64,000 nucleotides of DNA from Actinophytocola algeriensis (lineage in GTDB: Bacteria > Actinomycetota > Actinomycetes > Mycobacteriales > Pseudonocardiaceae): assembly GCF_014203735.1 (NCBI RefSeq), contig NZ_JACHJQ010000006.1:1-64000 (forward strand). Reading direction: 5' to 3'. Position numbers and translations under genes: made by a program. Shown one piece after another: positions 24,382-61,222 of the stretch. The notes beneath the pieces are model-generated. The model searched no databases. It was not told the DNA's origin and saw only the letters and a list, made by a program, of their open reading frames with translations. How positions within the stretch are numbered: position 1 is the first letter of the stretch; each line of letters opens with the position of its first letter.

Positions 24382-25110
24382 GCCGCAGATGCTGCCGCCG
24401 GGCGCTTTCCCGGCGCTTTCGCCGGGATGAAACCGGCGCGCTACCCGGACGCGCGGGCCACGTGCATCGTGCGGACCGACAGCCAGGACGATCAGCACCA
24501 GCACCGCCGCGCTGGTGGTGTAGGCCGCCACCGCCGCCGGGTTCGTGACGAGGAGGTCGACCGTCGTGTGCCCGCCCGCCAGGTTCATGCCCAGCGAGAT
24601 GCCGCCGCACGAGGCGGCGCCGACGGCGCCGGTCAGCCCGACTGCGGACGTCAGCCTGCGCGGGGACACCGAGCGGCGGAACGTGCTCACCAGCAACGCG
24701 AGCGCGGCGACGCCGACCGCCACGGTCATGACGTCCTGCAGCACCGCCAGCACCCGGACCACATCGGGGGTGGCGCCGCGTTCGCGGCGCACCGCACCGC
24801 TGCGCCACAGCAGGTCCCAGCCGAACAGCATCGCCGGGAACACGACGGCGAGCAGCACCGCCGCCCGCCGGCCCTGCCGTGCGGTCAGCTCGTCCTGGAA
24901 CTCCGGCGCCACCTCGTCCACCGGCCCGAAGTCACGCACGGCGAGCACCGCGGCACGCTCGGGTGCCACTCCCCCGTCGCGGTAGGCGGCCGCGGCGTCG
25001 GCCAGGCCTTCGTGCGCCTCGGCGACCATGCACCGGAGCGTGCGCCGGGGGCCGTGCAACGCACGGCGGAGCGCGCCGACGTACTCGGCGATCGGGTCCA
25101 CTGTGGTCAC
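24382..25110 (-). CDS. HAAS-domain membrane protein, reads into downstream gene
   Basis: GTG 25110 begins a protein with an N-terminal soluble helical domain ('IAEYVGALRRALHGPRRTLRCMVAEAHEGLADAAAAYRDGGVAPERAAVLAVRDFG', a HAAS/permease-prefix domain) and four membrane helices. Such proteins are encoded beside PadR regulators and pair with them. After the last helix the frame has no stop and runs straight into the peptidoglycan-binding protein B (total 386 codons to 23950). A +1 shift near 24470 would give the ending 'MHVARASG' with TAG at 24441, which looks like a natural C-terminus. A one-base indel or sequencing error is likely. The start overlaps the PadR stop by GTGA. Confidence 0.7.
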
Positions 25111-35791: not shown

Positions 35792-36025
35792 CGCACGTGG
35801 CACCGCGCATCTCCACTGATGCGCTATGCCCGTTTCGGCAGAAGAGACCGGGTAGGCACATGAAGAGAAGGCAAACGGCACATCACTCGTGCACGCTTGG
35901 TAGCGGCATTGGGAAAAGCGTGTCGAGGACTGTCGCCGAACTTCGGCCTCATCGCCGCGGGTCAGCGGCCGGCGTTATTCGCGCGCCGATTCGGTCGGGT
36001 GGTCGTCGAGAATAGGCGGTACAGG

Positions 36026-39000
36026 TTGAGCACCGAACGAATCGCGATCGTCGGCATCGGACTTCGTTACCCCGACGCCGCCAGCACCCAGGAACTCTGG
36101 GAGAACGTCCTGGCGGGACGCCGTGCGTTCCGCAGGCTGCCGGACGAGCGGATGAACCAGGCGGACTACTACTCCGCCGATCAGGACGCACCGGACCGCT
36201 TCTACTCCAAGAAAGCGGCCGTGCTGAGGGACTTCGAGTTCGACCGGCTGAAGTACAAGGTCGCCGGCAGCACCTTCCGGTCGACCGACCTCACTCACTG
36301 GCTGGCGCTGGACGTCGCCGCGACGGCACTGGCCGACGCGGGCTTCCCCGACGCGGAGGGCCTGCCGAAGCAGGCCACCGGCGTCGTGTTCGGCAACAGC
36401 CTCACGGGTGAGTTCTCCCGGGCGAACCTCATGCGGTTGCGCTGGCCATACGTGCGGCGCACCCTCGCGGCCGCGCTGTCGGCCAAGGGCTGGGACGACG
36501 ACGAGACGTCCGCGTTCCTGCGCGACCTCGAGCCCGTGTACAAGGCGCCGTTCCCCGCGATCGACGAGGACACCCTCGCGGGTGGTCTCGCGAACACCAT
36601 CGCGGGCCGGGTCTGCAACTACTTCGACCTCGGCGGCGGCGGTTACACCGTCGACGGCGCCTGTTCTTCGTCGCTGATCTCCATCGCGACGGCGTCCAAG
36701 GCACTGGTCGACGGCGACCTGGACGTGTGCCTCGCCGGTGGCGTGGACCTGTCCATCGACCCGTTCGAGGTGATCGGCTTCGCCAAGACCGGGGCGCTGT
36801 CCACCGGCGAGATGAAGATCTACGACGCCGACTCCAACGGCTTCTGGCCCGGTGAGGGCTCCGGGGTCGTCGTGCTGATGCGCGAGGAGGACGCGATCGC
36901 CCGCGGTCTGCGGATCTACGCGTCGATCACCGGCTGGGGCATGTCCTCGGACGGCAAGGGCGGCATCACCCGGCCGGAGGCGGCCGGGCACCGGCTCGCC
37001 ATCAGCCGCGCGTACAGCCGCGCCGGGTACGGCCCGGAGACCGTCGCCTACTTCGAGGGCCACGGCACCGGCACCGCACTCGGGGACGCCGTCGAGCTGG
37101 AAGCCATCGGTTCCGCGCGGCGCAACTCCGACCCGGAGGCCAGGCCTGCGGCGATCAGCTCGCTGAAGGGCAACATCGGCCACACCAAGGCCGCCGCGGG
37201 TGTCGGTGGCCTGATCAAGGCCGCGCTGTCGGTGTACCACCAGGTCATCCCGCCCTCGACCGGGCACTTCGACGCGCACCCGAAGCTCACCGGCGACAAC
37301 CCGGCGCTGTACGTGCCGAGCACACCGGAGCTGTGGCCGGACGACGTGCCGATCCGCGCCGGTGTGTCGGCGATGGGCTTCGGTGGCATGAACACGCACA
37401 TCGCGCTGGAGCAGGCCCCGGGCACCACGCGCCAGTCGGAGCTGCCGAAGGACGCCGCGGCACTGCACAGCGGCAGGCAGGACGCCGAGCTGTTGCTGCT
37501 CGACGCGGCCGACAACGCCACGCTGGCCGAGCAGGTCACCGGGCTGGTCGACGTGGTGGCGAAGCTGTCGTTCGCCGAGATCGCCGACCTGGCCGGGACA
37601 CTGGCCGGGCAGCTGACCGGCGGTCCGGTGCGGGCCGCGATCGTGACCACGAGCCCAGAGGACGCGGTCGGCAAGCTGGAGCGGCTGGGTGCCGCGCTGG
37701 CCGAGGACACCCGCCTGTTCACCGCGGACGGCGTGTACCTCGACCGCGGCGAGAGCGCACCGAGGATCGCCTACCTGTTCCCGGGTCAGGGTTCCGGGCG
37801 CGGCGCGGTCGGCGCGATCCGCCGCAGGTTCGCGGCGGCGGAGGCCGTGTTCGAGCACGCGGGTGTGCCGACCGACGGCGACCAGGTCGCCACCGAGGTC
37901 GCGCAGCCGCGGATCGTCGCCGGGTCGGTCGCGGCGCTGCGGGTGCTGCACAACCTCGGCGTGGACGCGGACGTCGCGGTCGGCCACAGCCTCGGCGAGC
38001 TCACCGCGCTGGCCTGGGCCGGTGTGCTGGGCGGCAAGGACGTCGTGCGCCTCGCCACGGCCCGCGGTGCGGTCATGGCCAACGCCAGCCAGGGCGGCGG
38101 CGCGATGGCCGGCCTCGCCACCACGGCCGACAAGGCCAGGTCGTTGTTCGGCAACGAGCCGGTCGTCATCGCCGGGTACAACGGGCCGAAGCAGACGGTC
38201 ATCGCGGGTGACGCGGGTGCCGTGGACCGCGTGGTCGAGACCGCCAGGGCCGAGGGCATCACCGCCAACCGGCTCAACGTGTCGCACGCCTTCCACTCGC
38301 CGCTGGTCCAGCCCGCGGCGGAGGCGATGACGGAGCGGCTCACCGAGTTCGACTTCGCCATCCCGGGGCGCACGATCGTGTCCGCCGTGACCGGTGAGGT
38401 GCTCGACCCGAGCACCGACCTGCGGGCGATGTTGCGCGACCAGATCGTGGCCCCGGTCCGGTTCCACGAGGCGGCCGCGAAGGCCACCGAGGGCGCGGAC
38501 CTCGCGATCGAGGTCGGTCCCGGCCGGGTGCTGACCGGGCTGCTGCGCGACATCGCGCCGGACGTGCCGGTGCTGTCTGTCGACACCGACAGCCAGTCGC
38601 TGTCCTCGCTGCTGTCGGTCGTCGGCGCCGCCTACGCGCTGGGCGCGAAGGTGGACACCGAGGCGCTGTTCGCCGACCGGGTGCGGCGGCCGATCTCGCT
38701 GTCGGGTGAGTTCACGTTCCTGGCGAGCCCGTGCGAGGCGGCACCGGACCTGGCGATCGGCATCACCGAGTTCGGTGCGCTCAACCCGGCCGCGAACGAG
38801 GCCGAGACCGAGACCGCCGAGGCAGGCGAGGACGGCACGTCCACGCTCGACCTGCTGCGCCAGCTCGCCGCCGAGCGCGTCGAGCTGCCGCTGGAGACCG
38901 TCACGGCGGCCACGCACCCGCTGGACGACCTGCACCTGAGCTCCATCACCGTCGGGCAGATCGTCAACGAGGTCACCCGCAGGCTGGGCCTGCCCACGCT

Positions 39001-41839
39001 GGAGGCGACGACCAACTTCGCCACCGTGACGCTGGGCGAGCTGGCCGAGATCATCGACGAGCTGGCCGAGTCGGCCGGCGACGGCGACGGCGGTGGCAGC
39101 AACGAGGTCGCCGGTGTCGCGCAGTGGGTTCGGCCCTTCCGGGTCGACTACGTCAAGGCGCGCACCCCGAGGGTCAGCACCGGCACCGGGTCGGTGGGCA
39201 CCTGGCAGGCGTTCGCCCCGGCGGGCCACCCGCTGGCGGAGCGGCTGCGGGTCGCGCTGGACGAGGCGGGCATCGGCGACGGTGTGCTGCTGGTCCTGCC
39301 GGACAGCGGTGAGGAGCACGTCGACCTGATCCTGGGTGCCGGCAAGGCGGCGGCCGCCGCCGCGCCGGGCAGCCGGTTCGTCGTGGTGCAGAACAAGTTC
39401 GGCGCGTCGGGGCTCGCCAGGACCGCGTTCCTGGAGGCCCAGGAGGTATCGACGACGATCGTCTCGCTGCCCGACCTCGCGCCGTCGACCGCGACCGCGA
39501 TCGACGAGGCCGTGCAGCGGGTCATCACCGAGGCGGCCGCGACCACGGTGTTCAGCGAGGTCCGCTACACGCCGGAGGGCCAGCGGACCAAGCCGGTGCT
39601 GACCGTGGTGCAACCGCCGGCCGAGGCGCCGGTGGGCACCCCGCTCGACAGCTCCGACGTGCTGCTGGTCACCGGTGGCGCGAAGGGCATCACCGCGGAG
39701 TGCGCGCTGGTCATGGCGCTGGACTCGGGTGCGAAGCTCGCGTTGATCGGCCGGGACGCCCCGGAGGACGACGAGGAGATCGCGTCCAACATCGCCAGGA
39801 TGACCGAGGCGGGCGTGGTGTGCCAGTACGAGCGCGCCGACGTCACCGACCCCCAGCAGGTCGCGCAGGCGGTCGCCGCGTTCGAGGCCAACCTCGGCCC
39901 GGTCACCGGTGTCATGCACGGCGCGGGCCGCAACGAGCCCGCCGCGCTGTCCAACCTGACCGAGGAGCGGTTCCACCAGACGCTGGCCGTCAAGATCGCA
40001 GGCCTGCGCGCGGTGCTCGACTCGGTGAACCAGGACGGCATCAAGCTGCTCGTCACGTTCGGCAGCATCATCGGCCGGGCGGGGCTGCGCGGCGAGGCAC
40101 ACTACTCGACCGCGAACGACTGGATGTCGGAGATGACCGTCGACTTCCAGCGGGCGCACCCGAACTCGCGGGCGATCGCGATGGAGTGGTCGGTCTGGTC
40201 CGGTGCGGGCATGGGTGAGCGGCTGGGCGTCGTCGAGGCGCTGGTCCGCGACGGCATCACGCCGGTCTCGGTGGACGAGGGCCTGAAGGTGCTGCGCCAG
40301 GTGCTGGCGGACCCGGCGGCCGGCCCGATCGTGACGATCACCGGCCGGATGGGCGGGCTGCCGACGCTGCCGCTCGACACGAGCGAGGAACTGCCACTGG
40401 CCCGGTTCGTCGACCGCGTCCTGGTGCACTACCCGCAGGTCGAGCTGGTCACCGAGGTCGAGCTGTCCCCGGGCAGCGACCCGTACCTGTCCGACCACCT
40501 GCTGGACGGGGACCTGCTCTTCCCCGCGGTCGTCGGCATGGAGGCGATGAGCCAGGTGGCGACGGCGCTGACCGGGCAGACCGGTGCGCCGCTGCTGGAG
40601 GACATCGAGTTCCTGCGCCCGATCGTGGTCCGGCCCGGCTCGGCCGCGGCCGTGCGGCTCGCCGCACTGGCCCGCGACGAGGAGACGGTGACGGTCGCGA
40701 TCCGCTCGGAGGACACCGGGTTCAGCGCGGACCACTTCCGCGCCACGCTCCGGTTCCCCCGGCCGGCCCCGGCCGACTCGGGTGAGGAGCGGACGGCGAC
40801 CCAGCTGCCGCTGGTGCCGCTCGACCCGATCACCGAGCTGTACGGCGGCGTGATGTTCCAGGGCAAGCGGTTCCAGCGGGTCCTCGGGTACCGGCGGGCG
40901 AGTGCCCGGCACGCGGTGGCGGAGCTGTCCACCACCACACCGGCGCCGTGGTTCGCCGCCTACCTGCCGCAGGAGCAGGTGCTGGCCGACCCCGGCACCC
41001 GTGACGCGGTGATGCACGCACTGCAGTGCTGCGTGCCCGACGCGACACTGCTGCCGCAGGGTGTGGAGCGGCTGTACCTGGCCCAGCCCGCGGACCAGCA
41101 GGTCGAGTACGTGGTGCTGGACGCTCGTGAACGGTCGCAGGACGGCGACAGCTACATCTACGACGTCGACGTCCTCGAGCCCACCGGCAGGCTGGTCGAG
41201 CGGTGGGAAGGCCTGACGCTGCGGGCCGTGCGGCGCAAGGACGCCTCGGGTCCCTGGGTGTCCTCGATGCTCAGCGGCTACCTGGAGCGGACGCTGGAGC
41301 AGGTCATCGGCGGCACCCGCGCGGTGGTCGTCGAGCCGGACCCGGTGGCCGGCGAGCCCGCCGACCGGCGGGCGCAGACCGAGCTGGCCGCGAGCCGTGC
41401 CCTGGGTGGCCCGGTGTCCGTGCGGTACCGCCCGGACGGCAAGCCCGAGGTGGACGGTGCCTCGATCTCGGCGTCGCACGGCGCCGGGGTGACCCTGGTG
41501 GTGACCGGGCAGGGCAGGCTGGGCGCCGACGTGGAGGCCGTGGTCGAGCGCAGTGAGGCGGACTGGGCCGACCTGCTCGGCCGCGAGCTGGGCGGTGTCC
41601 GCGACCTGGTGGTGGCGGAGTCGGGTGAGGACGTGCACACCGCGTCCACGCGGCTCTGGTCCGCGCTGGAGTGCCTGCAGAAGACCGGCACGACGGCACG
41701 GGACCTCACGGTGGACCGGGTCACGGCGGACGGCTGGGTCGTGCTGTCCTCCGGGAACGCACGGGTCGCCACCTGGGTCACCACCCTCAACGACCTCGAG
41801 GAGCCGGTGGTCTTCGCCGTCCTCGCCGGAGAGGGGTGA
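36026..41839 (+). CDS. pksE: Enediyne polyketide synthase PksE
   Basis: About 1,937 residues, the usual PksE length, with the full domain order KS-AT-ACP-KR-DH-PPTase. The KS has the active-site Cys213 (VDGACSSS) and catalytic His in EGHGTGT and GNIGHTKAAAG. The AT has GHSLGE (Ser655). The atypical enediyne ACP has LHLSSIT (Ser972/973). The KR has TGGAKGI near residue 1215, and the DH has YLSDHLLDGDLLFPA near 1490. The C-terminal integrated phosphopantetheinyl transferase has 'ISASHGAG..LVVT' and 'GADVEAV' from about 1760. It makes the octaketide-derived polyene precursor of the warhead iteratively. I place the start at TTG 36026 (RIAIVGIG begins directly after; AGGCGG lies just upstream). 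In-frame GTG 35999 is the main alternative. The TE gene is coupled downstream. Confidence 0.95.
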   Translation: MSTERIAIVGIGLRYPDAASTQELWENVLAGRRAFRRLPDERMNQADYYSADQDAPDRFYSKKAAVLRDFEFDRLKYKVAGSTFRSTDLTHWLALDVAATALADAGFPDAEGLPKQATGVVFGNSLTGEFSRANLMRLRWPYVRRTLAAALSAKGWDDDETSAFLRDLEPVYKAPFPAIDEDTLAGGLANTIAGRVCNYFDLGGGGYTVDGACSSSLISIATASKALVDGDLDVCLAGGVDLSIDPFEVIGFAKTGALSTGEMKIYDADSNGFWPGEGSGVVVLMREEDAIARGLRIYASITGWGMSSDGKGGITRPEAAGHRLAISRAYSRAGYGPETVAYFEGHGTGTALGDAVELEAIGSARRNSDPEARPAAISSLKGNIGHTKAAAGVGGLIKAALSVYHQVIPPSTGHFDAHPKLTGDNPALYVPSTPELWPDDVPIRAGVSAMGFGGMNTHIALEQAPGTTRQSELPKDAAALHSGRQDAELLLLDAADNATLAEQVTGLVDVVAKLSFAEIADLAGTLAGQLTGGPVRAAIVTTSPEDAVGKLERLGAALAEDTRLFTADGVYLDRGESAPRIAYLFPGQGSGRGAVGAIRRRFAAAEAVFEHAGVPTDGDQVATEVAQPRIVAGSVAALRVLHNLGVDADVAVGHSLGELTALAWAGVLGGKDVVRLATARGAVMANASQGGGAMAGLATTADKARSLFGNEPVVIAGYNGPKQTVIAGDAGAVDRVVETARAEGITANRLNVSHAFHSPLVQPAAEAMTERLTEFDFAIPGRTIVSAVTGEVLDPSTDLRAMLRDQIVAPVRFHEAAAKATEGADLAIEVGPGRVLTGLLRDIAPDVPVLSVDTDSQSLSSLLSVVGAAYALGAKVDTEALFADRVRRPISLSGEFTFLASPCEAAPDLAIGITEFGALNPAANEAETETAEAGEDGTSTLDLLRQLAAERVELPLETVTAATHPLDDLHLSSITVGQIVNEVTRRLGLPTLEATTNFATVTLGELAEIIDELAESAGDGDGGGSNEVAGVAQWVRPFRVDYVKARTPRVSTGTGSVGTWQAFAPAGHPLAERLRVALDEAGIGDGVLLVLPDSGEEHVDLILGAGKAAAAAAPGSRFVVVQNKFGASGLARTAFLEAQEVSTTIVSLPDLAPSTATAIDEAVQRVITEAAATTVFSEVRYTPEGQRTKPVLTVVQPPAEAPVGTPLDSSDVLLVTGGAKGITAECALVMALDSGAKLALIGRDAPEDDEEIASNIARMTEAGVVCQYERADVTDPQQVAQAVAAFEANLGPVTGVMHGAGRNEPAALSNLTEERFHQTLAVKIAGLRAVLDSVNQDGIKLLVTFGSIIGRAGLRGEAHYSTANDWMSEMTVDFQRAHPNSRAIAMEWSVWSGAGMGERLGVVEALVRDGITPVSVDEGLKVLRQVLADPAAGPIVTITGRMGGLPTLPLDTSEELPLARFVDRVLVHYPQVELVTEVELSPGSDPYLSDHLLDGDLLFPAVVGMEAMSQVATALTGQTGAPLLEDIEFLRPIVVRPGSAAAVRLAALARDEETVTVAIRSEDTGFSADHFRATLRFPRPAPADSGEERTATQLPLVPLDPITELYGGVMFQGKRFQRVLGYRRASARHAVAELSTTTPAPWFAAYLPQEQVLADPGTRDAVMHALQCCVPDATLLPQGVERLYLAQPADQQVEYVVLDARERSQDGDSYIYDVDVLEPTGRLVERWEGLTLRAVRRKDASGPWVSSMLSGYLERTLEQVIGGTRAVVVEPDPVAGEPADRRAQTELAASRALGGPVSVRYRPDGKPEVDGASISASHGAGVTLVVTGQGRLGADVEAVVERSEADWADLLGRELGGVRDLVVAESGEDVHTASTRLWSALECLQKTGTTARDLTVDRVTADGWVVLSSGNARVATWVTTLNDLEEPVVFAVLAGEG

Positions 41840-42603: not shown

Positions 42604-45600
42604 ATGCTTGCGCTTCGACTGCTCGGGCCCTTGACGCTGTCCGTCGCCGACGTCGAGCACGATCTCGGCGGCGCCCGGCAACGCGTGGTCCTCGCGCTGC
42701 TGGCGCTCAACGCCAACCGAGTGGTCCCGGTCGACCAGCTCATCGACGCCGTGTGGGAGTCCGCGCCGCCGACCACCGCCCGCGCCCAGATCCAGATCTG
42801 CGTGTCCGGCCTGCGCCGGGTGCTCGCGGGCGCCGGTGACACCGCCCAGATCCGCACCCGCCCGCCCGGCTACCTGCTCGACATCTCCGACGACGACCTC
42901 GACGTCGCCCAGTTCACGAGCCTCGTGACCGCCGCGCGGGCGCACGTCGACGCCAACCGCGTGGCCGAGGCGGTCGCCACGCTGCGCAGCGCGCTGTCGC
43001 TGTGGCGCGGGCCCGCGCTGGCGGGCATGAACTCGGAGCTGCTGCGCCGCAACGCGGCCCAGCTCGACGACGCCCGGGTCGCCGCGGTCATGGACCGGCT
43101 GCGCCTCGACCTCACCCTCGGGCGGCACGACGAGATCATCGGCGAGCTGTTCGCGCTGGTCAAGGAGCACCCGCTCCGCGAGCGGCTGTACGAGTACCTG
43201 ATGCTCGCGCTGTACCGCGCGGGCCGCCAGGCCGAGGCGCTCGAGGTGTGCAGGCAGGCGCGGGCCACGCTGATGGAGGAGCTCGGGATCGAGCTCGGCG
43301 AGAGCGCGCGCAGGCTCGAGAGCGCGATCCTCAACCGCGACCCCAAGCTCGACATCGCCGTGTCCGGCGTCGACGGCCGCACCACCCCGGTCACCGTCGT
43401 GCCCCAGACGGTGGTGCCGCGCAGGCTGCCGGCCACCATCGGCGACTTCACCGGCCGGGCCGCACAGCTCGCCGAGATCAAGAACGCGCTCGACGACCAC
43501 GGGGACCCCGAGGCGGTCAACTACGGCACGCGCATCGTCGCAATCTCCGGCAAGGGCGGCGTCGGCAAGTCCACGCTGGCCGTGCGGGCCGCGCACGAGC
43601 TGCGCGACGCCTACCCCGACGGCCACCTCTACGGCGACCTCGAGTCCACGACCGGCGAGGACCGGGTCCGCGGCGTGCTCGCCCGGTTCCTGCGCGCGCT
43701 GGGCATCGACGGCAACGCGATCCCGGAGGACGACGAGGAGCGCGGCGAGCTGTACCGCAGCCGCGTGGCCAACAAGAAGGTGCTGGTCGTGCTCGACGGC
43801 GCGACCGACGAGGAGCAGGTCATCCCCCTGCTGCCGGCCGGGCCGGGGTGCGCGGTGATCGTGACCAGCAGGACCCGGCTGTCCGGCCTGCCGGGCGCGC
43901 TGCAGGTCGCCATCGAGGTGTTCGACGTCGACCACGCGCTGGAGATGTTCGCGACGATCGTCGGCCAGGAGCGGATGCGCAACGAGCCGGAGGCGGCGCG
44001 CGAGCTGGTCAGCCAGTGCGGCGGTCTCCCCCTCGCGATCCGGATCGCGGGCGCGCGGCTCGCCTCCCGCGCGCACTGGCGCATCGACGTGCTGGTCGCC
44101 CGGTTGCGCGACTCGGTGCGCAGGCTCGACGAGCTGTCGTTCCGCGGCCTGGTGCTGCGTTCCAACATCGGCCAGAGCTACGAGGTCCTGTCCGAGGACG
44201 GGCAGCGGCTCTTCCGCCGGTTCGCGCTGATCACCACCCCGGACTTCCCGTGGTGGACCGCGGCCGCGCTGCTGGACGTGGACCCCTACGACGCCTTCGA
44301 GGTGGTCGAGACGCTGGTCGACGCGCAGCTGCTGGACACGGTGCAGTACCCGGGCGAACGGCTGCGCTACCGGTTCCACGACCTGATCCGGGTGTACGCG
44401 ACCGAGCAGTTGCAGACCACGGAGTCCGCGGCCGAGCAGACGGAGACGGTCGAGCGGCTGCTGGGCGCCTGGCTCGCCCGCGCCGACCACGCGCACGCCA
44501 AGGAGTACGGCGGCGCCTACACGATCATCCACGGTACGACCTCCCGCTGGGGCCGCGCGGCCGAGCTGGAGGAGGCCGACGAGATGGTCAACCAGATCGA
44601 CTGGCTGGAGAGCGAGCGCCGCTCACTCGTGTCGGCGGTCCGCCTGGCCGCCGACCACGAGATGGCGGAGGCGTGCTGGGACCTCGCACTCACCTCGGTG
44701 ACGTTGTTCCAGCTCAAGGGCCACTTCGACGACTGGCGGGAGACCGCCGAGCTGGCCCTCGCGACGTCGGAGGCGGCGGACAACCAGCGCGGCCGGGCCG
44801 CGATGCTGTTCTCGCTCGGCGCGCTGCACGCACAGCAGCAGACCCGCCTCGACGAGGCCGAGCGCTGCTACACCGCCGCGCTGGAGATCTTCGAGGAGCT
44901 GGGCGACGAGCACGGCCACGCGCTCGCGCTGCGCAACCTGGCGACGCTGCACCGCATGCGCCACGGGACCGAGGCGACGATGGCGATGTACGAGGTGGCG
45001 CTCGAGAAGATGCGCGCGGTCGGCGACCTGGTCGGCCAGGCTCACATCCTTCAGCACATGGCGAAGGTCTGCATCGACGAGGGGGACGCCGACCGCGCGC
45101 GGGACCTGTTGGAAGCGGCGCTGACCCGCTGCCAGGAAGTGCGGTACCTCCGTGGCGAGGCCCAGGTCCTCAACCGGTTCGCCGAGCTGCACCTGTTCGT
45201 CAACCAGATCGAAGAGGCGCACCAGGCGCTGAACCGGGTACTGCTGATCGTGCGCGACATCGGTGACCGCATCGGTGAGGCGCACGCCTTGTACCGGCTG
45301 GGGGTGGTCCGCCAACGCTCCGGGCGACTGGACAACGCGGAGACCACCCTCCAGCACGCTCTATCCCTCGCTCAGCAGGTCGGCCAGCGCATGGTCGCCG
45401 GCAGCGCCCACTACGCGCTCGCCGAGATTGCCCTGTCCCGGGGTCAGGAGGCGGCCGGCGCGAGCCACATCGACGCGGCTCTCGCGCGGTTCGCCGAACT
45501 CGGCGCCACGATCTGGCAGGCCAAAGCCCTGATCCTCCGGTCGGACAGCCATGACGGCCGGGGCGAGGACAACCCGGCCGCCCGCGATCTCGACGCGGCC

Positions 45601-45690
45601 ATCGAACTGCTCGGCACGGTGCAATCCACCGAGGCCGTCCGGTTGCGGAAGGAACTCGAACGCAACCGGGGTAACGCGTTTTCTCCCTGA
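42604..45690 (+). CDS. Large SARP regulator 1 (SARP-NB-ARC-TPR)
   Basis: 1,028 residues. Residues 1-95 are an OmpR-type winged helix (LRLLGPLTLSV, 'LLALNANRVVPVDQLIDAVW', 'RPPGYLLDI'). Residues 96-245 are the BTAD domain ('LWRGPALAGM', 'HPLRERLYEYLMLALYRAGRQAEALE'). Residues 290-600 are an NB-ARC ATPase with P-loop SGKGGVGKSTLA near 314-325 and 'VLVVLDGA' Walker B. From about 690 to 1000 there are tetratricopeptide repeats. AfsR-type proteins like this activate antibiotic genes, binding 11-bp-spaced heptamers. The ATG has GGGGGCGAG upstream. It closely resembles the regulator at 54722. A tiny secreted-peptide gene lies 72 bp downstream in convergent orientation, a possible TPR ligand (inference). 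Confidence 0.93.
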   Translation: MLALRLLGPLTLSVADVEHDLGGARQRVVLALLALNANRVVPVDQLIDAVWESAPPTTARAQIQICVSGLRRVLAGAGDTAQIRTRPPGYLLDISDDDLDVAQFTSLVTAARAHVDANRVAEAVATLRSALSLWRGPALAGMNSELLRRNAAQLDDARVAAVMDRLRLDLTLGRHDEIIGELFALVKEHPLRERLYEYLMLALYRAGRQAEALEVCRQARATLMEELGIELGESARRLESAILNRDPKLDIAVSGVDGRTTPVTVVPQTVVPRRLPATIGDFTGRAAQLAEIKNALDDHGDPEAVNYGTRIVAISGKGGVGKSTLAVRAAHELRDAYPDGHLYGDLESTTGEDRVRGVLARFLRALGIDGNAIPEDDEERGELYRSRVANKKVLVVLDGATDEEQVIPLLPAGPGCAVIVTSRTRLSGLPGALQVAIEVFDVDHALEMFATIVGQERMRNEPEAARELVSQCGGLPLAIRIAGARLASRAHWRIDVLVARLRDSVRRLDELSFRGLVLRSNIGQSYEVLSEDGQRLFRRFALITTPDFPWWTAAALLDVDPYDAFEVVETLVDAQLLDTVQYPGERLRYRFHDLIRVYATEQLQTTESAAEQTETVERLLGAWLARADHAHAKEYGGAYTIIHGTTSRWGRAAELEEADEMVNQIDWLESERRSLVSAVRLAADHEMAEACWDLALTSVTLFQLKGHFDDWRETAELALATSEAADNQRGRAAMLFSLGALHAQQQTRLDEAERCYTAALEIFEELGDEHGHALALRNLATLHRMRHGTEATMAMYEVALEKMRAVGDLVGQAHILQHMAKVCIDEGDADRARDLLEAALTRCQEVRYLRGEAQVLNRFAELHLFVNQIEEAHQALNRVLLIVRDIGDRIGEAHALYRLGVVRQRSGRLDNAETTLQHALSLAQQVGQRMVAGSAHYALAEIALSRGQEAAGASHIDAALARFAELGATIWQAKALILRSDSHDGRGEDNPAARDLDAAIELLGTVQSTEAVRLRKELERNRGNAFSP

Positions 45691-45762
45691 CCCCTCCGGG
45701 AGCGGCGGCAGGACAACTCCCCCGAGTCAGTCGCCTGCCACCCCTTGATCACACCACCGGGC

Positions 45763-45933
45763 TCACGGGCACGGCGTGTTCCAGTCGTCCTCGCAGTCCA
45801 GGAGCATGGTCACGTTCGCCGTGGGCGAGTTCCAGTCGTCCTCGGCCGCGGCGGTGCCGGCTCCGACGAACAGGGCGGACAGGCCCAGGAACAGTGCGGC
45901 GGCGGACAGCGCGCTCTTGCGAATGGCAGACAT
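45763..45933 (-). CDS. Small secreted peptide next to SARP 1 (EDDWN motif)
   Basis: 56 residues. N-terminus MSAIRKSAL followed by a hydrophobic core and AGTAAAE, a typical Sec signal peptide with cleavage after the AAA. The mature peptide would be about 26 residues and contains EDDWNSP and, near the C-terminus, EDDWNTPCP, a duplicated motif, plus two cysteines. GGAGG lies 7 bp upstream of the ATG. It converges on the SARP 1 stop (72 bp). A related peptide (same MSA(I/L)RK(S/T) start, similar length and VT.L.D segment) sits in the same position after SARP 2. I know no named family. A signalling precursor is my preferred reading; a small structural or immunity peptide cannot be excluded. Confidence 0.75.
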   Translation of the reverse strand: MSAIRKSALSAAALFLGLSALFVGAGTAAAEDDWNSPTANVTMLLDCEDDWNTPCP

Positions 45934-46050: not shown

Positions 46051-46069
46051 CGATAGCGATCGGATAGAG
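46051..46069. promoter_or_regulatory. SARP-like direct repeats upstream of peptide gene 1
   Basis: GATAGCG (46052-46058) and GATAGAG (46063-46069) are heptamers whose starts are exactly 11 bp apart, the spacing of SARP binding sites. The first also overlaps a CCGAT-AGCG-ATCGG palindrome (46050-46063). They lie about 118 bp before the peptide start and just after the reductase stop. The same CGATAGC core with an 11-bp partner is found before peptide gene 2. Confidence 0.6.
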
Positions 46070-46083
46070 CGGCAGTAGGCGCG

Positions 46084-54721: not shown

Positions 54722-57700
54722 ATGTGCCCCGACCCGGCTGTGGTTCAGGGGGTGGCGCTGGTGTTATGTCTCCTGGGCCCGTTGGAGCTGTCCAGCGGCG
54801 GTCAGGAACTCGACCTCGGTGGTCCTCGGCAACGGGTGGTGCTGGCGATGCTGGCGCTCAACGCCAACCGCATCGTGCCGCTCGAGTCGCTGATCGACGC
54901 AGTGTGGGACACCACCCCGCCGACCACCGCACGGGCCCAGGTGCAGATCTGCGTCTCCGCCCTGCGCAAGATCTTCACCGCGGCGGACGTACCGCTGCGG
55001 ATCCGGACCAGGACGCCTGGCTACCAGCTCGAGGTCCCGGCCGACCAACTCGACACCGAACAGTTCAGTGAGCTGGTCAGGACCGCGCGCACGCACGCGG
55101 AGGCGGGCCGTACCGCCGAGGCGGTCGCCACCCTGCGCACGGCTCTCGGGCTCTGGCGCGGCGAGGCCCTCGCCGACCTGCACAGCGAGCTCGTGCGCCG
55201 CGGCGCCGACCAGCTGGGACACGCCCGGCTGGCCGCGGTCATGGAGCGCATCCAGCTCGACCTCACCCTCGGCAGGCACGAGGCGACCATCGGCGAGCTG
55301 ACCGCGCTGGTCGAGGAGCACCCGCTGCGGGAGCGGCTCTACGAGTTCCTCATGCTCGCCCTCTACCGCTCCGGGCGGCAGGCCGAGGCGCTCGAGGTGG
55401 GCAGGCGGGCGCGGCAGACCCTGATCGACGAGCTGGGCATCGAGCCTGGCAAGTCGCTGCAGCGATTAGAGACGTCCATCCTGAACCGGACGCCAGAGCT
55501 GGACCTGGTGTCGAACAGCCCGGACTCCGTGCCGGTCATCGCCCCGCCCGCGAACGAGACGCCCCTGGTGATGCCGCGCAGGCTGCCCGCGAGCATCGCC
55601 GACTTCACCGGCCGCGAGGACCACCTCACCCTGATCCGCCGGGCGCTGTCCGGCGACGAGGACCAGGACGACCCGTTCGGCATGCGGATCGTGGCGCTCT
55701 CCGGGAAGGGCGGTGTCGGCAAGTCGACGCTCGCCATCCGCGCGGCGCACGAGCTGCGGGACGTCTACCCGGACGGCCACCTCTACGCCGACCTGGAGTC
55801 CGGCCGCATCCACGACGTGCTCGACCGGTTCCTGCGCGCCCTCGGCGTCGACGGCTCCACCGTGCCGGACGACGTCGAGGAGAAGGCCGACATGTACCGC
55901 AGCCGGGTCGCGAACCTGCGGGTGCTGGTCGTGCTGGACGGGGCGACCAGGGAGGACGAGGTCCTCCCCCTGCTGCCCGCGGGCCCGGGCTGCGCGGTGA
56001 TCGTGACCAGCCGGGCGCCGCTCTCCGGTCTGCCCGGCGCGGCGCTGGTCGCCATCCACCCGTTCGACGTCGGCCTGTCGCTGGAGATGCTCGCCAAGAT
56101 CATCGGCCCGGAACGGATGGCCGCCGAGAACGGCGCCGCGGTCGAGCTGGTCGACTTCTGCGGCCGCCTGCCGCTCGCCATCCGGATCGCGGGCGCCCGG
56201 CTCGCGTCCCGCCCGCACTGGCGGCTCGACATCCTGGTCGCGCGGCTGCGCAACACCGCACGCAGGCTCGACGAGCTGACCTACCACGGGCTGGAGCTGC
56301 GGTCGAGCATCGGGCTGACCTACCGGGTGCTCCGGGAGGAGGCCAAGGCGCTGTTCCGGCTCTTCTCCGTCATCCCCACCCCCAGCTTCCCCGGCTGGAC
56401 GGCCGCCGCGCTGCTCAACCGCGACCCGTTCGACGCCGAGGAGGTGCTGCAACAGCTCGTCGAGGCACAGCTGCTCGACACCGTCGCCATCCCCGGCGAG
56501 CACCCGCGCTACCGCTTCCACGACCTGATCCGGGTGTACGCGTACGAGCGGCTGGTCGAGGAGGACGCGGAGCAGGACCGCCACGCGGCGGTCGTCCGGC
56601 TGCTCGGCACGTGGCTCGCGATGGCGGAGACCGCGCACCGCAAGGAGTACGGCGGGGACTACACGATCCTGCACGGTCCCGGGCCGCGCTGGCACCTCGG
56701 CGAGGGGGCGGAGTGCGACGCGGGTCCGCTCAACGACCCGATGGAGTGGCTGGAGGCGGAGCGCCCGTCGCTGGTGGCGGCCGTGCGCCTCGCCGCCGCG
56801 GCGGGCGAGCACGAGCTGTGCTGGGACCTCGCGCTGACCGCGGTCACGTTGTTCGAGGTGAAGGGGCACTACGACGACTGGCGGGAGACCGCGGAGGTGG
56901 CGCTGGAGGCGACCACTTGCGCGGGCAACCGGCGCGGGGAGGCCGCGACGCGGTACTCGCTGGGGACCCTGGCGCTGTCGCAGCGGCGGCTGACAGAGGC
57001 CGAGGAGCACTTCGCCGCGGCGCTCGCGAGCTTCCGCGCCGACGGCGACGCGCACGGCTGCGCGCTGGTGCTGCGCAACGCGGCCATGGTCGACCGGCTG
57101 CGCGGCCACTCCACGGCGATGCTCGCCAAGTACCACGACGCGCTGCGGATGATGCGCGAGGTCGACGACCCGGTCGGCGAGGCGGGCATCCTCGCGAGCC
57201 TCGCGAAGCTGCGGATCGACGAGGGCGACACCGCCCGCGCGCGTGAACTGCTCGACAAGGCGCTCGCGTGCACCCGGCGGGCGGGCTACCTGCGCGGCGA
57301 GGCGCAGGTGGTCATCCGCTTCGCCGAGCTGCACCTCGGCGAGAACCAGGTGAACGAGGCACACCGCGCGTTCAACCGGGTGCTGCTGATCGTGCGCAAC
57401 ATCGGCGACCGGATCGGCGAGGCGCACGCGCTGTACGGGGTGGGCATGGTCCGGCAGCGCGCGGGCAGGCTGGACAACGCGAAGGCGACGCTGCAGCACG
57501 CGCACTCCCTCGCGCGGCAGGTCGGCGAACGGCTCATCGAGGCCCAGTCGCTCTACGCGCTGGGCGAGATCGCCCTGGCCAGGGGCAACAGCGGTGCCGG
57601 GCTGGTGCACCTGGCGGAGGCACAGCAGCTCTTCGCCGAGTTCGGGTCGACGGTGTGGCACGCCAAGACGCTGATCCTGCTCTCCGACGTGCACCAGGGC

Positions 57701-57850
57701 GCGGGTGAGCTGGACCTCGCGCGGCAGGAGATCGAGCGGGCGGAGGAGCTGCTCTCGATGGCCGACTCGAAGGAGGCCCGCAGGCTGTCCGCGGAGCTGA
57801 CCGCGGTCAAGGCGACGCTCTTCCCCGACATCGTCAACAGCGTCGGCTGA
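54722..57850 (+). CDS. Large SARP regulator 2 (SARP-NB-ARC-TPR)
   Basis: About 1,042 residues, similar along its whole length to the regulator at 42604: OmpR winged helix ('LLGPLELSSGGQELDLGGPRQRVV'), BTAD ('LWRGEALADL', 'HPLRERLYEFLMLALYRSGRQAEALE'), NB-ARC with P-loop SGKGGVGKSTLA near residue 330 and 'HPFDVGLSLEMLAKIIGPERM', then C-terminal TPR repeats. The two are clearly products of a duplication. ATG 54722 is the annotated start, but GTG 54752 or 54761 would align better with SARP 1 and the latter has AGGGGG upstream. A peptide gene converges on its 3' end across a terminator, as with SARP 1. Probable pathway activator. Confidence 0.92.
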   Translation: MCPDPAVVQGVALVLCLLGPLELSSGGQELDLGGPRQRVVLAMLALNANRIVPLESLIDAVWDTTPPTTARAQVQICVSALRKIFTAADVPLRIRTRTPGYQLEVPADQLDTEQFSELVRTARTHAEAGRTAEAVATLRTALGLWRGEALADLHSELVRRGADQLGHARLAAVMERIQLDLTLGRHEATIGELTALVEEHPLRERLYEFLMLALYRSGRQAEALEVGRRARQTLIDELGIEPGKSLQRLETSILNRTPELDLVSNSPDSVPVIAPPANETPLVMPRRLPASIADFTGREDHLTLIRRALSGDEDQDDPFGMRIVALSGKGGVGKSTLAIRAAHELRDVYPDGHLYADLESGRIHDVLDRFLRALGVDGSTVPDDVEEKADMYRSRVANLRVLVVLDGATREDEVLPLLPAGPGCAVIVTSRAPLSGLPGAALVAIHPFDVGLSLEMLAKIIGPERMAAENGAAVELVDFCGRLPLAIRIAGARLASRPHWRLDILVARLRNTARRLDELTYHGLELRSSIGLTYRVLREEAKALFRLFSVIPTPSFPGWTAAALLNRDPFDAEEVLQQLVEAQLLDTVAIPGEHPRYRFHDLIRVYAYERLVEEDAEQDRHAAVVRLLGTWLAMAETAHRKEYGGDYTILHGPGPRWHLGEGAECDAGPLNDPMEWLEAERPSLVAAVRLAAAAGEHELCWDLALTAVTLFEVKGHYDDWRETAEVALEATTCAGNRRGEAATRYSLGTLALSQRRLTEAEEHFAAALASFRADGDAHGCALVLRNAAMVDRLRGHSTAMLAKYHDALRMMREVDDPVGEAGILASLAKLRIDEGDTARARELLDKALACTRRAGYLRGEAQVVIRFAELHLGENQVNEAHRAFNRVLLIVRNIGDRIGEAHALYGVGMVRQRAGRLDNAKATLQHAHSLARQVGERLIEAQSLYALGEIALARGNSGAGLVHLAEAQQLFAEFGSTVWHAKTLILLSDVHQGAGELDLARQEIERAEELLSMADSKEARRLSAELTAVKATLFPDIVNSVG

Positions 57851-57886
57851 CGCCGGCAGCGGTCCGGAGACGGGGCCCGAGATGAC

Positions 57887-57929
57887 GGATGGCGCCTGTC
57901 CCGCGCACTCCGCGGGGCAGGCGCCATCC
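57887..57929. terminator. Bidirectional terminator between SARP 2 and peptide gene 2
   Basis: 19-bp stem (arms 57887-57905 and 57911-57929, one G-T pair) with a 5-base loop, between the two convergent stops at 57850 and 57944. It can end both transcripts. Confidence 0.85.
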
Positions 57930-57943
57930 GGTGCCGGGCAACG

Positions 57944-58108
57944 TCACGGCCGCACACTGCCCCAGGGCGAATCCGCGAGCACGGTCACCCCGGCGTGGCC
58001 GGCGCCGCCCTGGGCTAACTCGCCCGCCGACGTGGCGATGACCAGCAAACCCGCTGCTCCTGCGAGTGCGACAAGGGTGGCGGCGACGGTCTTGCGCAGT
58101 GCGGACAT
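57944..58108 (-). CDS. Small secreted peptide next to SARP 2
   Basis: 54 residues: MSALRKTVAA, hydrophobic core, then a short mature part ending 'GVTVLADSPWGSVRP'. The N-terminus matches peptide 1 (MSA-I/L-RK-S/T), and both mature parts contain a VT-L-D segment followed by a Trp and a final Pro (W.S/T..P). GAGGAG lies 6 bp before the ATG at 58108; the longer open frame upstream has no support. It converges on SARP 2 exactly as peptide 1 converges on SARP 1. There is no cysteine here, so disulfide formation is not a common requirement. Role unknown; secreted signal or co-inducer of the TPR regulator is the working idea. Confidence 0.72.
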   Translation of the reverse strand: MSALRKTVAATLVALAGAAGLLVIATSAGELAQGGAGHAGVTVLADSPWGSVRP

Positions 58109-58211
58109 CGTGTTCTCCTCGGCCCGTCGGGGATGTCGAGCGGCTGTGGAACTTGCTCGAGTACGAGTCAACGACCAGTCGCTTTGCGTTGACATTTCGC
58201 CGCTTAACCGC

Positions 58212-58243
58212 CCGCTATCGACCGGCGATAGCGGATCGATGGG
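58212..58243. promoter_or_regulatory. CGATAGC palindrome and 11-bp direct repeat
   Basis: CCGCTATCG-ACCGG-CGATAGCGG is a perfect 9-bp inverted repeat (58212-58234). Its right arm CGATAGC (58226) is followed exactly 11 bp later by CGATGGG (58237). The site lies between peptide gene 2 and the cyclodeaminase-like operon and could drive both. It shares CGATAGCG with the site before peptide gene 1. Confidence 0.65.
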
Positions 58244-58305
58244 ATCGGAGTAGCCCCCTGCGGAACCGTTGCTTCCATCGGATCCGCTAGATGGAGGCGA
58301 GCGCG

Positions 58306-59247
58306 ATGGCCAACACGGTCCTGCGGCTCGGAACTGACGACCTACTACGCATCCTCGAGACCGTCGACCCCGTCGAGCTGCTGGCCGAGGAGCTGATCAA
58401 GCGCACCATCGGCCACCCGGAGCGCGCACGGGACTCCCGCGGGCTCGTCCCCTGGATCGACCCCGCGACCGAGACGGAGTACGTCCGGTACGAGGACCCG
58501 GCCACCGGCCTCGACTGCGCGATGCACGCCGGGCTCCTGCGCATGGTGCACGCGGCGGCGCTCGCCGCGCTGGCCACCCGTGAGCTGCTGGTTCCCGGCG
58601 GGGTCACGGTGGCGATGCTCGGCACCCGGTTCGCGACGCAGGCGCAGCTCGCCGTGCTCGCCCGGCACGTGCCCGACATCGTGCACGTGGCCGTGCGCGT
58701 CACGGACAAGGCCGACGGGACCGACGCGCTCGAGCCCCGGCTGATCGACCAGCTCGACCTGGCGGGCATCGGCCTGTCGGTGGTGCCGGAGCTGGCCGAC
58801 TCGCTGTTCGGCGCGAACCTGGTCGTCGCGGCGAGCGAGGACGCCCTGACCGAGGGCGTCGAGCACGCCACGATCCGGGACCTGGTGCGCGGCACCGTGC
58901 TCGTGAACTCCTCCGGTCACGACCTGCCCGCCTCGCTGCTGGACCACGTCGACCAGATCTACGTCGACGACCTCGCCCTGCTGCCGGAGCACGCGGACCG
59001 CCACATCGTCACGCGGCACCTGGCCCACACGACCGCCGGACCCGCGCACAACGGCACCGACCGCCAGCCGCCCGCGATCGCCGCGGACCTCGGCCGGCTG
59101 CTCACCGGAGCGTGGCCGGGACGCCAACAGCAGGACGACGTCGTCGTCGTCGAGCTGCTGAGCGCGCGGACCCCGGACCTCCACCTCGCCGGCACCATCG
59201 CCGAGTCCGCGTTACGCGGCGGCCTCGGTGAGCGGGTGACGGCATGA
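58306..59247 (+). CDS. Ornithine cyclodeaminase/mu-crystallin-like protein (SbnB-like)
   Basis: 313 residues. Central Rossmann fold with 'VTVAMLGTRFATQAQLAVLARHVPDIVHVAVRV' (NAD-binding GxGxxxxxQ, slightly modified as GTRFATQ), an N-terminal substrate domain ('IGHPERARDSRGLVPWIDP') and 'VLVNSSGHDLP' near the end. In SbnB this family oxidatively cleaves an amino-acid adduct to release 2,3-diaminopropionate; others deaminate ornithine or reduce imines. I place the start at ATG 58306, which has GGAGG nine bases upstream, rather than 58291. The stop overlaps the OvmZ-like gene by ATGA, and the gene is divergent from peptide gene 2. Confidence 0.75.
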   Translation: MANTVLRLGTDDLLRILETVDPVELLAEELIKRTIGHPERARDSRGLVPWIDPATETEYVRYEDPATGLDCAMHAGLLRMVHAAALAALATRELLVPGGVTVAMLGTRFATQAQLAVLARHVPDIVHVAVRVTDKADGTDALEPRLIDQLDLAGIGLSVVPELADSLFGANLVVAASEDALTEGVEHATIRDLVRGTVLVNSSGHDLPASLLDHVDQIYVDDLALLPEHADRHIVTRHLAHTTAGPAHNGTDRQPPAIAADLGRLLTGAWPGRQQQDDVVVVELLSARTPDLHLAGTIAESALRGGLGERVTA

Positions 59248-59942
59248 CCACCACCGCCCACCTTGGCTCCCACGCGGGACGGAGAGTGACCACCATGGTT
59301 GAGAGGGTGCGCGACAACGAAGCCGGAGCGCTCTGTCTGAGCCAGCGGCACGGCGGACTCCCGTCCCGCACCGTGCCCGGCCTGACGGTCTGCGCCGACT
59401 GCCGCAAGGACGCCGAGGAGAGCCTGCTCGAGCTGCCCGTCCTGTACGACATGTGCGCGTACGTGCTCGACGCGCGCCACCCGCAGCCGAGGGAGCGGGT
59501 CAGCGGGCGCAGGCCGGGCGGCATCGTGCTGCGCGACGCCGTGGTGAGCATCCGGTCCGAAATCCTCGGCGTGCTCGCGTCGTGGTGCGGGCTGGTGACG
59601 AGCGAACGCGGTGTCACCGGTCCCGACGAGCTCAGCATCCCGCGCCTCTCGACGTTCGTGCTGATCCACTTCGGGTGGCTCACCTCGCACCCCGCGGGCC
59701 CGGACTTCGTGGACGAGCTGGCCTCGCTGGCCGACCGCGCACGCGAGGTGCTCAAACCGGAGCCGCGCACCGAGATCGACCTCGGTCCGTGCAACCACCC
59801 CGGCTGCGGGTGGACGGTGCGTGCCGAGGGCCATCCGCCGACGCGGATCCGCTGCGACGCGGGTCATGAGTGGCCGCCGGAGAAGTGGCTGCTGCTGCGC
59901 GACGACCATCGGTTCGATTCTTCTCGGGAGAGTGGGGAATGA
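59244..59942 (+). CDS. OvmZ-like zinc-cysteine protein
   Basis: Up to 232 residues. A Cys cluster 'TVCADCRKDAEESLLELP' lies in the first third and 'CNHPGCGW...CDAGHEW' near the C-terminus, consistent with a structural zinc site. The middle is helical ('SIPRLSTFVLIHFGWLTSHPAGPDFVDELASLADRARE'). It matches my memory of OvmZ-type proteins, which occur with a small HTH partner in actinomycete polyketide clusters and elsewhere; function is unknown, possibly DNA binding. The start overlaps the cyclodeaminase stop; ATG 59295, with GGACGGAG upstream, is an alternative. It overlaps the following HTH gene by ATGA. Confidence 0.7.
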   Translation: MTTTAHLGSHAGRRVTTMVERVRDNEAGALCLSQRHGGLPSRTVPGLTVCADCRKDAEESLLELPVLYDMCAYVLDARHPQPRERVSGRRPGGIVLRDAVVSIRSEILGVLASWCGLVTSERGVTGPDELSIPRLSTFVLIHFGWLTSHPAGPDFVDELASLADRAREVLKPEPRTEIDLGPCNHPGCGWTVRAEGHPPTRIRCDAGHEWPPEKWLLLRDDHRFDSSRESGE

Positions 59943-60336: not shown

Positions 60337-60374
60337 CGAATGCCCATTCACTCACATCGGTGAATGGGCATTCG
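60337..60374. promoter_or_regulatory. Perfect 15-bp inverted repeat before SARP 3
   Basis: CGAATGCCCATTCAC (60337-60351), 8-base loop, GTGAATGGGCATTCG (60360-60374), 45 bp upstream of the SARP 3 start. No T-tract follows. It could be an operator for a dimeric repressor, a terminator for the OvmZ operon or an attenuator of SARP 3. A TTGACA at 60279-60284 lies upstream but its -10 is poor. The remaining bases of 60134-60418 show no gene. Confidence 0.75.
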
Positions 60375-60418
60375 TGCTTTCACCTCGATCCGGGCGGCAT
60401 CGAGAAAAGAGAAATGTC

Positions 60419-61222
60419 ATGCGAGTAGAAATCAATGTTCTCGGCCCGCTCGAAGTCAACGTCGACGGCGTGTCGGTGGTGCCAACGGCGAGCAAACCGA
60501 GCCAGTTGCTGGCGATTCTCGCGCTCAACGCGGGACGGGTCGTCACGGCGCGCTTACTGACCGAGGAGATCTGGGCGAGCCATCCCCCGCGCACCGGCGT
60601 GACGACATTACACACCTACATCCTGAAACTGCGCAGGAACCTGGACCTGGCGCTGGCCGGCGACGCGGGCCTGACCGCCAAGGACATCCTCGTCACGCGG
60701 CGCGCGGGCTACCTGCTGAACGTGGAGCCGACCGCCGTCGACGCCATCCGTTACGAGCAGCTGTCCACGGCGGGCCGCCAGGCGGTCAACGAGGGCGACC
60801 ACGAGACCGCGTCGCGGATGCTGGCCGAGGCGCTGCGGTTGTGGCGCGGGCCCGCACTCGCCGACCTCCCGATCGGACCGCCACTCGCCATCGAGGCGAT
60901 GCGGCTCGACGAGAACCGGCTGGGCGACCTGCACCTGCGCATCGAGGCCGACCTGCGGCTCGGTCGGCACCACCAGCTGCTCGGCGAGCTGGCGACCCTG
61001 TGCGTGCGGTACCCGATGCTCGAGAACTTCTGCGTGCAGCAGATGATCGCGCTGTATCGCAGTGGCAGGCAGAGCCAGGCACTGGCCGCGTACCACCGGC
61101 TGCGCAAGGAGATGGTGGAGCAGCTGGGGGTCGAGCCGTCGCCGCGCGTCCGGCAGCTGCACCACGCGATCCTCACCGGTCAGGCCGCGGCCGAGGCCCC
61201 GAACATGGTCTACAACGTCTGA
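60419..61222 (+). CDS. Short SARP regulator 3
   Basis: 267 residues, the size of DnrI/RedD-type SARPs, with no ATPase or TPR. The winged helix is 'EINVLGPLEVNVDGVSVVPTASKPSQLLAILALNAGRVV..LLTEEIWASHPPRTGVTTLHTYILKLRRNL' in outline, then BTAD ('LWRGPALADLPIGPPLAIEAMRLDENRL', 'MIALYRSGRQSQALAAYHRLRKEMVEQLG'). A likely cluster-specific activator. ATG 60419 has AGAGAAA upstream. A perfect inverted repeat precedes the gene, and it converges on the AhpD-like gene 29 bp away. Confidence 0.9.
   Translation: MRVEINVLGPLEVNVDGVSVVPTASKPSQLLAILALNAGRVVTARLLTEEIWASHPPRTGVTTLHTYILKLRRNLDLALAGDAGLTAKDILVTRRAGYLLNVEPTAVDAIRYEQLSTAGRQAVNEGDHETASRMLAEALRLWRGPALADLPIGPPLAIEAMRLDENRLGDLHLRIEADLRLGRHHQLLGELATLCVRYPMLENFCVQQMIALYRSGRQSQALAAYHRLRKEMVEQLGVEPSPRVRQLHHAILTGQAAAEAPNMVYNV

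Follow-up and report, generated by a model that had tools for sequence, protein, structure and literature searches.

We analyzed a 64,000-nucleotide stretch of the genome of Actinophytocola algeriensis (genus Actinophytocola, family Pseudonocardiaceae; contig NZ_JACHJQ010000006.1, positions 1 to 64,000; hereafter, the window) and identified two gene pairs, each consisting of a large regulator of the Streptomyces antibiotic regulatory protein (SARP) family and a small, signal-peptide-bearing peptide gene that converges on the 3' end of the regulator gene. SARP1 (42604..45690, + strand; 1028 aa) combines OmpR-type DNA-binding, BTAD, NB-ARC and tetratricopeptide repeat (TPR) domains, with Pfam matches to Trans_reg_C at residues 25-91, BTAD at 99-243, NB-ARC at 288-489 and TPR_12, with its best stretch at 732-803. 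Peptide gene 1 (45763..45933, − strand), located 72 bp away, has a strong ribosome site, CTCGGAGG, and encodes 56 aa, namely, a predicted signal peptide (residues 1-30, ending AAA; 45844..45933, −) and a predicted mature part of 26 aa (45766..45843, −), EDDWNSPTANVTMLLDCEDDWNTPCP, with two [DE]xxW cores in the order EDDWNSP...CEDDWNTPCP. Here and throughout, signal peptides were called by a heuristic combined with reading of the sequence, without SignalP. The convergent arrangement and the duplicated motif (EDDWNSP and EDDWNTP) had been pointed out by a first-pass annotation made from the sequence alone, and both are present as described; the second pair and the operator-like repeats reported below were missed by it.

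The second regulator, SARP2 (54722..57850, +; 1042 aa), belongs to the same clade as SARP1, as judged from its Pfam domains and the SARP tree, and both proteins display the architecture of large SARPs (OmpR-type DNA-binding, BTAD, NB-ARC and TPR domains in about 1000 aa). Peptide gene 2 (57944..58108, −), detected with an open reading frame (ORF) filter, is convergent on SARP2 and encodes a signal-peptide-bearing product of 54 aa that ends in ADSPWGSVRP. Five peptides were scanned against Pfam and NCBIfam; no model matched peptides 1 and 2, and two others gave sub-cut-off family matches only, among them CBM_14 at an E value of 0.003.

Both peptide genes are preceded by operator-like tandem 11-bp repeats, recognized by alignment and with a scoring matrix: CTACTGCCGCT CTATCCGATCG CTATCG upstream of peptide gene 1 (46051..46078, −; the pair starts at -134) and CTACTCCGATC CCATCGATCCG CTATCG upstream of peptide gene 2 (58226..58253, −). 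Tandem repeats of this type (CTATCG-N5-CTATCG), which are of the kind bound by SARPs, occur upstream of many peptide genes, including copies without a SARP neighbor, and a third repeat unit is often found ahead of the two. SARP sites are direct repeats with a spacing of 11 or 22 bp according to excerpts of a published account (PMC10936776), and repeats with such spacing at the peptide promoters are predicted to be bound by SARPs. When the sequences preceding both window peptide genes were aligned with those from five congener peptides, a conserved block emerged in which CTATC recurs every 11 bp. Allowing at most one mismatch, CTATC-N6-CTATC matched the window twice, upstream of peptide 1 (exactly) and of peptide 2, with 0.30 matches expected and two reached in 4 of 100 shuffles. 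A non-circular matrix, built from other genera only, scored 21.7 and 20.4 bits at the two peptide promoters and at most 14.6 bits elsewhere in the window, the runners-up being 58215-58231 (14.6, same region) and 24405-24421 (14.2, inside a predicted gene); other SARP regions, totaling 316,878 bp, reached 16.2 at best. A perfect inverted repeat, CGCTATCG-N5-CGATAGCG, at 58213-58233 overlaps the operator-like repeats in the interval that separates peptide gene 2 from a divergent OCD-like gene described below.

Outside the window, the site was detected with up to two mismatches in 17 of 35 peptide upstream regions versus none of 172 control upstream regions. In A. oryzae and A. gossypii, the site is degenerate, with 3 and 4 mismatches, respectively; no such site was found at the six Streptosporangiaceae-type peptides. 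The pattern CTWTCNNNNNGCTATCG occurs at 20 sites in 14 genomes, compared with 5 for the reversed pattern; 12 of the 20 are upstream of peptide genes, two are near a SARP in genomes G131 and G179, and six look incidental, with no peptide gene adjacent. The two identical sites near a SARP lie at 11063-11078 of locus L157 (G131) and 10570-10585 of L155 (G179); the G131 site precedes a pair of genes for a hexapeptide transferase and a PALP enzyme, a possible second target. In G179, the site is retained at -122 by three precursor copies that have no clade SARP next to them. In a motif-free analysis, 11 bp was the strongest period in 26 Pseudonocardiaceae peptide upstream regions (196, versus 19-127 at other periods) and in 15 regions from a further family, f18 (141 versus 12-61). 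The per-region medians were 6.5 and 8, respectively, versus 1 in the 172 controls, with rank-test values of 3e-8 and 5e-8 for related, non-independent rows. Random draws from the controls, which include one outlier tandem repeat, reached the observed sums in 27 of 20000 cases (draws of 26) and 160 of 20000 cases (draws of 15).

Homologs of peptide 1 were identified in all five congener genomes examined, in which the best homologs of SARP1 share 67-79% identity with its last 208 residues. The first contig scan, with the 56-aa peptide alone, returned no relative, and SARP-based and profile searches were needed. Three of the congener peptides have E values of 1.4e-11 to 7e-8; the other two calls, at only 0.005 and 0.07, are backed by the start, the position and context, and the core. 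The cores are DCDWNAP, DEDWHTP, DCSWQSP, DCSWDQP and DCGWQDP. The peptide gene is convergent on the SARP in four of the five congeners; in the remaining one, which is represented by a metagenome assembly, it adjoins an OCD/mu-crystallin-like (OCD-like) gene without a SARP. The absence of similar ORFs beside homologous SARPs, which the first-pass annotation had named as grounds for abandoning the idea, was not observed. Neither was a substitution pattern typical of a non-coding ORF: for the whole precursors of four Actinophytocola peptides, nonsynonymous divergence (dN, 0.20-0.36; NG86) is below synonymous divergence (dS, 0.39-0.87), which, together with the ribosome site and the homologs, supports the coding status of peptide gene 1. 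Three counts run counter to this pattern: dN exceeds dS for one pair within the short mature part and in all five pairs that include the distant G144, and G027 and G088 are even (dN 0.17, dS 0.16).

Several counts address how often such an ORF would be encountered by chance. A filter for signal-peptide-like ORFs of 33-100 aa with [DE]xxW in the mature part retained two ORFs in the window, both convergent on a large SARP. Nearly the same filter, applied to the A. algeriensis genome at 40 of its 48 BTAD loci (316,878 bp in total, with two regions overlapping; three of the eight loci left out lie in the window), retained two ORFs, both spurious-looking. Among 344 gene 3' ends in 60 regions, 33 have a convergent signal-peptide ORF and 17 of these also have [DEN]xxW, in a scan of SARP-rich, partly overlapping regions that relied on a heuristic gene caller and a motif chosen after the first cases had been seen. 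These 17 comprise 13 rows of clade SARPs (12 distinct), three family peptides at other genes and one spurious ORF. Thus, the pairing is a feature of one SARP clade rather than of SARPs at large.

The search that the first-pass annotation had proposed, for signal-peptide ORFs with a conserved core beside homologous SARPs, was positive both in related genomes and beyond, in two additional families: across three actinomycete families, SARP-NB-ARC-TPR genes of one clade often have a small, convergent signal-peptide gene at the 3' end, and the mature parts of the encoded peptides carry [D/E/N]xxW cores that are often repeated and often C-terminal (for example, EDTHW, DMHW and DSPWD). Profile A1, representing the C-terminal TPR region of the SARPs, matched 26 of 249 Pseudonocardiaceae genomes at 33 places, including the A. 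algeriensis genome and its congeners, and of the 32 3' flanks examined, 20, among them the two in the window, have a signal-peptide ORF that is convergent and contains a [DEN]xxW core. One of the 20, at L092 in G088, is about 1.3 kb away from the SARP, behind an ORF that reads as transposase-like. In a sample of the class, 13 of 394 genomes matched (own genome included); among the 16 places outside the own genome, five have a peptide gene and one more is doubtful. Saccharothrix sp. NRRL B-16314 encodes a peptide with a GTG start and a C-terminal NNDSPWD, and Streptosporangium subroseum has two precursors in tandem with DSHW cores. Tandem runs of precursors beside one SARP comprise two genes in Streptosporangium (L079, 5644-6009 and 6298-6495) and three in G901 (L168). 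A profile of three f18 SARPs matched 28 of the 200 f18 genomes, a count that includes the three genomes from which it was built, with a peptide gene at 16 of 30 loci, all within the 19 best-scoring ones; none was found at the 10 weakest, and the flank of L218 was too short for a decision. The precursors include examples with five copies of DMPWG, five of DDPWT or four of DDPW[VI], as well as precursors of 37-40 aa ending in DLPWT. The arrangement of the pair can vary, because a four-copy DDTPWG precursor in G205 (Pseudonocardiaceae; L151, 5775-6008) is divergent from a large SARP and is followed, 28 bp downstream, by a gene that reads as SARP-LAL-like.

Searching from the peptide side, a profile of six DTHW precursors matched 16 of 249 Pseudonocardiaceae genomes at E values up to 0.01. 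Of the 11 places below 1e-10, in seven genomes, seven are at a clade SARP and four are elsewhere; these extra DTHW precursor genes without an adjacent clade SARP are L152, L153 and L154 (all in G179) and L156 (G131). The DTHW dialect is seemingly confined to Pseudonocardiaceae, with other dialects elsewhere, because across the phylum the profile produced only three weak matches in 396 genomes. A tblastn search of plasmids with the DMPWG peptide gave no match, and none of the 21 loci without a detected peptide gene gained a convincing one when re-read with loose filters. Every SARP-peptide pair found is in Actinomycetota, Bacillota genomes not having been searched as such; weak TPR-only matches include archaea and cyanobacteria, without a pair.

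The peptide type tracks the SARP tree. When the peptide type (HW, PW, CW, none and two single-row labels) was mapped on a tree built from 51 SARP C-terminal regions, 16 changes were required, compared with a shuffled mean of 25.5; none of 200 shuffles gave a value as low, with near-copies among the rows favoring clustering. The TPR sensor region of SARP1 (44473..45687, +; 405 aa) was modeled with AlphaFold2 (pLDDT 86.3, pTM 0.81). The model superposes on NprR and Rap and resembles peptide-binding TPRs, so that the predicted fold is compatible with the binding of a re-imported peptide; the TPR-profile sequence match to RRNPP structures is weak (RapJ, 5e-4).

The pair is kept while the metabolic neighbors vary, being enediyne-like in the window and OCD-like in the congeners and in G179 and G131. 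At locus 1, the neighbors are SDR and HpaB genes, with no OCD-like gene. At locus 2, an OCD-like gene (58291..59247, +; PF02423) is divergent from peptide gene 2, and its end is overlapped by the gene for a 232-aa protein of unassigned family (59244..59942, +) that has a relative beside the G131 module (37% identity). OCD-like counterparts are present at the equivalent position in the five congeners and in G179, G131 and G088; PF02423 supports the calls for L106, L092 and L157, L010 is below the cut-off, and the other congener calls are from ORF reading. The window OCD-like protein and its G131 counterpart are 39% identical, and relatives of all four genes in 54722-59942 (SARP2, peptide 2, OCD-like and 232-aa) occur together in G131 (L157).

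The first-pass annotation further suggested that the peptide system controls an enediyne cluster. A polyketide synthase (PKS) gene at 35897-41839 (KS-AT-KR-DH) with DUF1702 and thioesterase-like neighbors fits such a cluster, DUF1702 being a marker of enediyne clusters. However, control by the peptide system is not supported: the matrix scan over the window detected no operator-like site at the PKS promoter, and in congeners, the peptide gene adjoins an OCD-like gene instead. Direct control of the PKS by SARP1 was rejected, given that strong operator matches in the window were confined to the promoters of the two peptide genes. Any control of the enediyne genes would thus be indirect, perhaps via the small SARP at 60374-61222. 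Two small SARP-like genes lie near the second pair and enediyne-like genes (60374-61222 and L038, C6:68854-69672 of the genome); both are possible direct cluster activators.

The sequences themselves establish that the two genes are paired and conserved, that the cores are repeated and that many peptide promoters have operator-like repeats. The best explanation is probably an autoinducing peptide pheromone that is sensed by a STAND-type SARP and would work like the RRNPP systems without being a member of that family. Under this scenario, the small gene would yield a Sec-exported precursor, from which signal peptidase and secreted proteases would free one or several short peptides around the [D/E/N]xxW core (for the window peptides, EDDWNSP..., CEDDWNTPCP and DSPWGSVRP). 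An oligopeptide importer would bring the peptide back to the cytoplasm, where it would bind in the sensor groove formed by the TPRs of the neighboring SARP; the NB-ARC (STAND) switch would then take ATP and free the SARP DNA-binding and activation domains. Once bound to the CTATCG repeats, which are in tandem at 11 bp, the freed SARP would attract RNA polymerase. Its first target would be the peptide gene itself, and nearby biosynthetic genes, for instance, the OCD-like one, would be others. Such autoinduction fits, because SARP-type tandem repeats lie upstream of the peptide genes. Peptide sensing, as put forward by the first-pass annotation, remains the best reading in view of the conserved linked genes and these repeats; we infer that the peptide is exported, processed and re-imported, that it binds the TPRs, and that the SARP domains are then released in an ATP-dependent manner, with positive feedback on transcription.

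Alternatively, the peptide could be a product rather than a signal, that is, a secreted bioactive or metal-binding peptide or the precursor of a modified peptide, the gene of which is a SARP target. Any plain target gene could be expected to have operator-like repeats at its promoter, as the peptide gene does, some cores contain Cys pairs or His, and multi-core precursors occur among modified peptides. However, there is no constantly linked peptide-modifying enzyme, the neighbors being SDR and HpaB at locus 1 and often OCD-like elsewhere; the position at the SARP 3' end is kept while the metabolic neighbors change; the 37-aa precursors leave, by our reading, only about 6-12 residues after the signal; and the operator is still present at the three G179 copies that have no clade SARP beside them. 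We therefore consider a product role unlikely. A second alternative, which appears less plausible still, is that the precursor or its core acts on the SARP inside the cell as a brake (negative feedback), with export serving as its removal. The tight linkage and the shared operator would suit any feedback partner, and NosP, a small SARP, is reported, in work cited by PMC10972967, to answer peptidyl ligands derived from its precursor peptide. However, the repeated, spacer-separated cores and those at the extreme C terminus look made for extracellular proteolytic release, a pattern shown by the Rap systems, in which one precursor can carry duplicated pheromones (excerpts of PMC11343458).

It is very improbable that the repeats serve only the divergent OCD-like gene, with the peptide gene as an uninvolved neighbor: the congener repeats do lie between the peptide and OCD-like genes, but locus 1 has no OCD-like gene and yet has the repeats at -134, the three G179 copies lacking an adjacent clade SARP keep them at -122, and 11-bp repeats also mark the f18 peptide upstream regions. 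Finally, although short ORFs are common in this GC-rich window, chance open frames can be dismissed with near certainty given the homology, the ribosome sites, the counts in the window, genome and 3'-end controls, and dN below dS within the genus.

The presumed pheromone system shares with the RRNPP(A) systems of Bacillota (Rap-Phr, NprR-NprX, PlcR-PapR and AimR) a small gene for a secreted propeptide (signal peptide called by the heuristic) adjoining the gene for a cytoplasmic TPR regulator, short and sometimes duplicated pheromone cores, and a TPR model that superposes on NprR and Rap. In RRNPP(A) receptors, an Xre-type helix-turn-helix domain or the three-helix domain of Rap is joined to the TPRs, whereas Pfam reveals Trans_reg_C, BTAD and NB-ARC here rather than Xre-TPR or Rap. 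Furthermore, the pair described here is convergent and found in Actinomycetota, its operator is an 11-bp tandem repeat, and the precursors have no Pfam or NCBIfam match. The SARPs of 1028 and 1042 aa also contrast with RRNPP receptors of 250-500 aa (excerpts of PMC10075063). Thus, the system is not an RRNPP member, because the receptor length and effector domain differ and pairs were found only in Actinomycetota, in searches not aimed at Bacillota.

AfsR and other large Streptomyces SARPs have the same order of SARP, NB-ARC/NOD and TPR domains, with the NCBIfam AfsR model scoring 570 bits here against a cut-off of 1430. The AfsR target afsS encodes a small non-exported protein; in contrast, the clade described here has a linked secreted peptide, AfsR being without a known inducer. 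To our knowledge, MalT-type STAND regulators have no linked peptide gene; their likeness to the present SARPs is in domains only, and an inducer and ATP switching are assumed here by analogy. Excerpts of PMC10936776 give a sugar as the MalT inducer and, for AfsR and large SARPs, describe 11-bp direct repeats as binding sites, as predicted here, and, for AfsR, inhibition by the C-terminal domains that ATP relieves, with inducer binding said to remain elusive. Genes for precursors of ribosomally synthesized and post-translationally modified peptides have a linked modifying enzyme; the neighbors of the present genes include OCD-like, SDR and HpaB genes, with no modifying enzyme constantly among them. 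NosP, reportedly a small SARP without NB-ARC and TPR domains, differs also in that its peptide is said to be the precursor of the thiopeptide product. The likeness lies in SARP activity being tied to peptide ligands (work cited by PMC10972967). A literature search, which covered neither most subscription papers nor any preprints, retrieved no description of these SARP-linked peptides, and the core strings gave unrelated titles; the pairing looks like a new, seemingly undescribed peptide-regulator pair.

With slightly less confidence than in the signaling role of the window pairs, we propose that these genes represent a widespread class of actinomycete pheromones, namely, secreted, repeat-bearing [D/E/N]xxW precursors with clade-specific dialects that may well be sensed inside the cell by NLR-like (STAND) SARPs, which would activate natural-product clusters as well as the gene for their own peptide. 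Excerpts of PMC10075063 describe the quorum signals of Actinomycetota as, typically, enzymatically produced small molecules. The importance of the pair lies in the class of ligands that it offers to large SARPs, which have so far been without a known inducer. If the proposal is correct, the linked gene with its readable core would provide a testable ligand for each such SARP, and synthetic peptides of 5-10 residues would allow a cheap attempt to wake silent clusters. For the bacteria themselves, the system would constitute a peptide signal that tells them when to make natural products.

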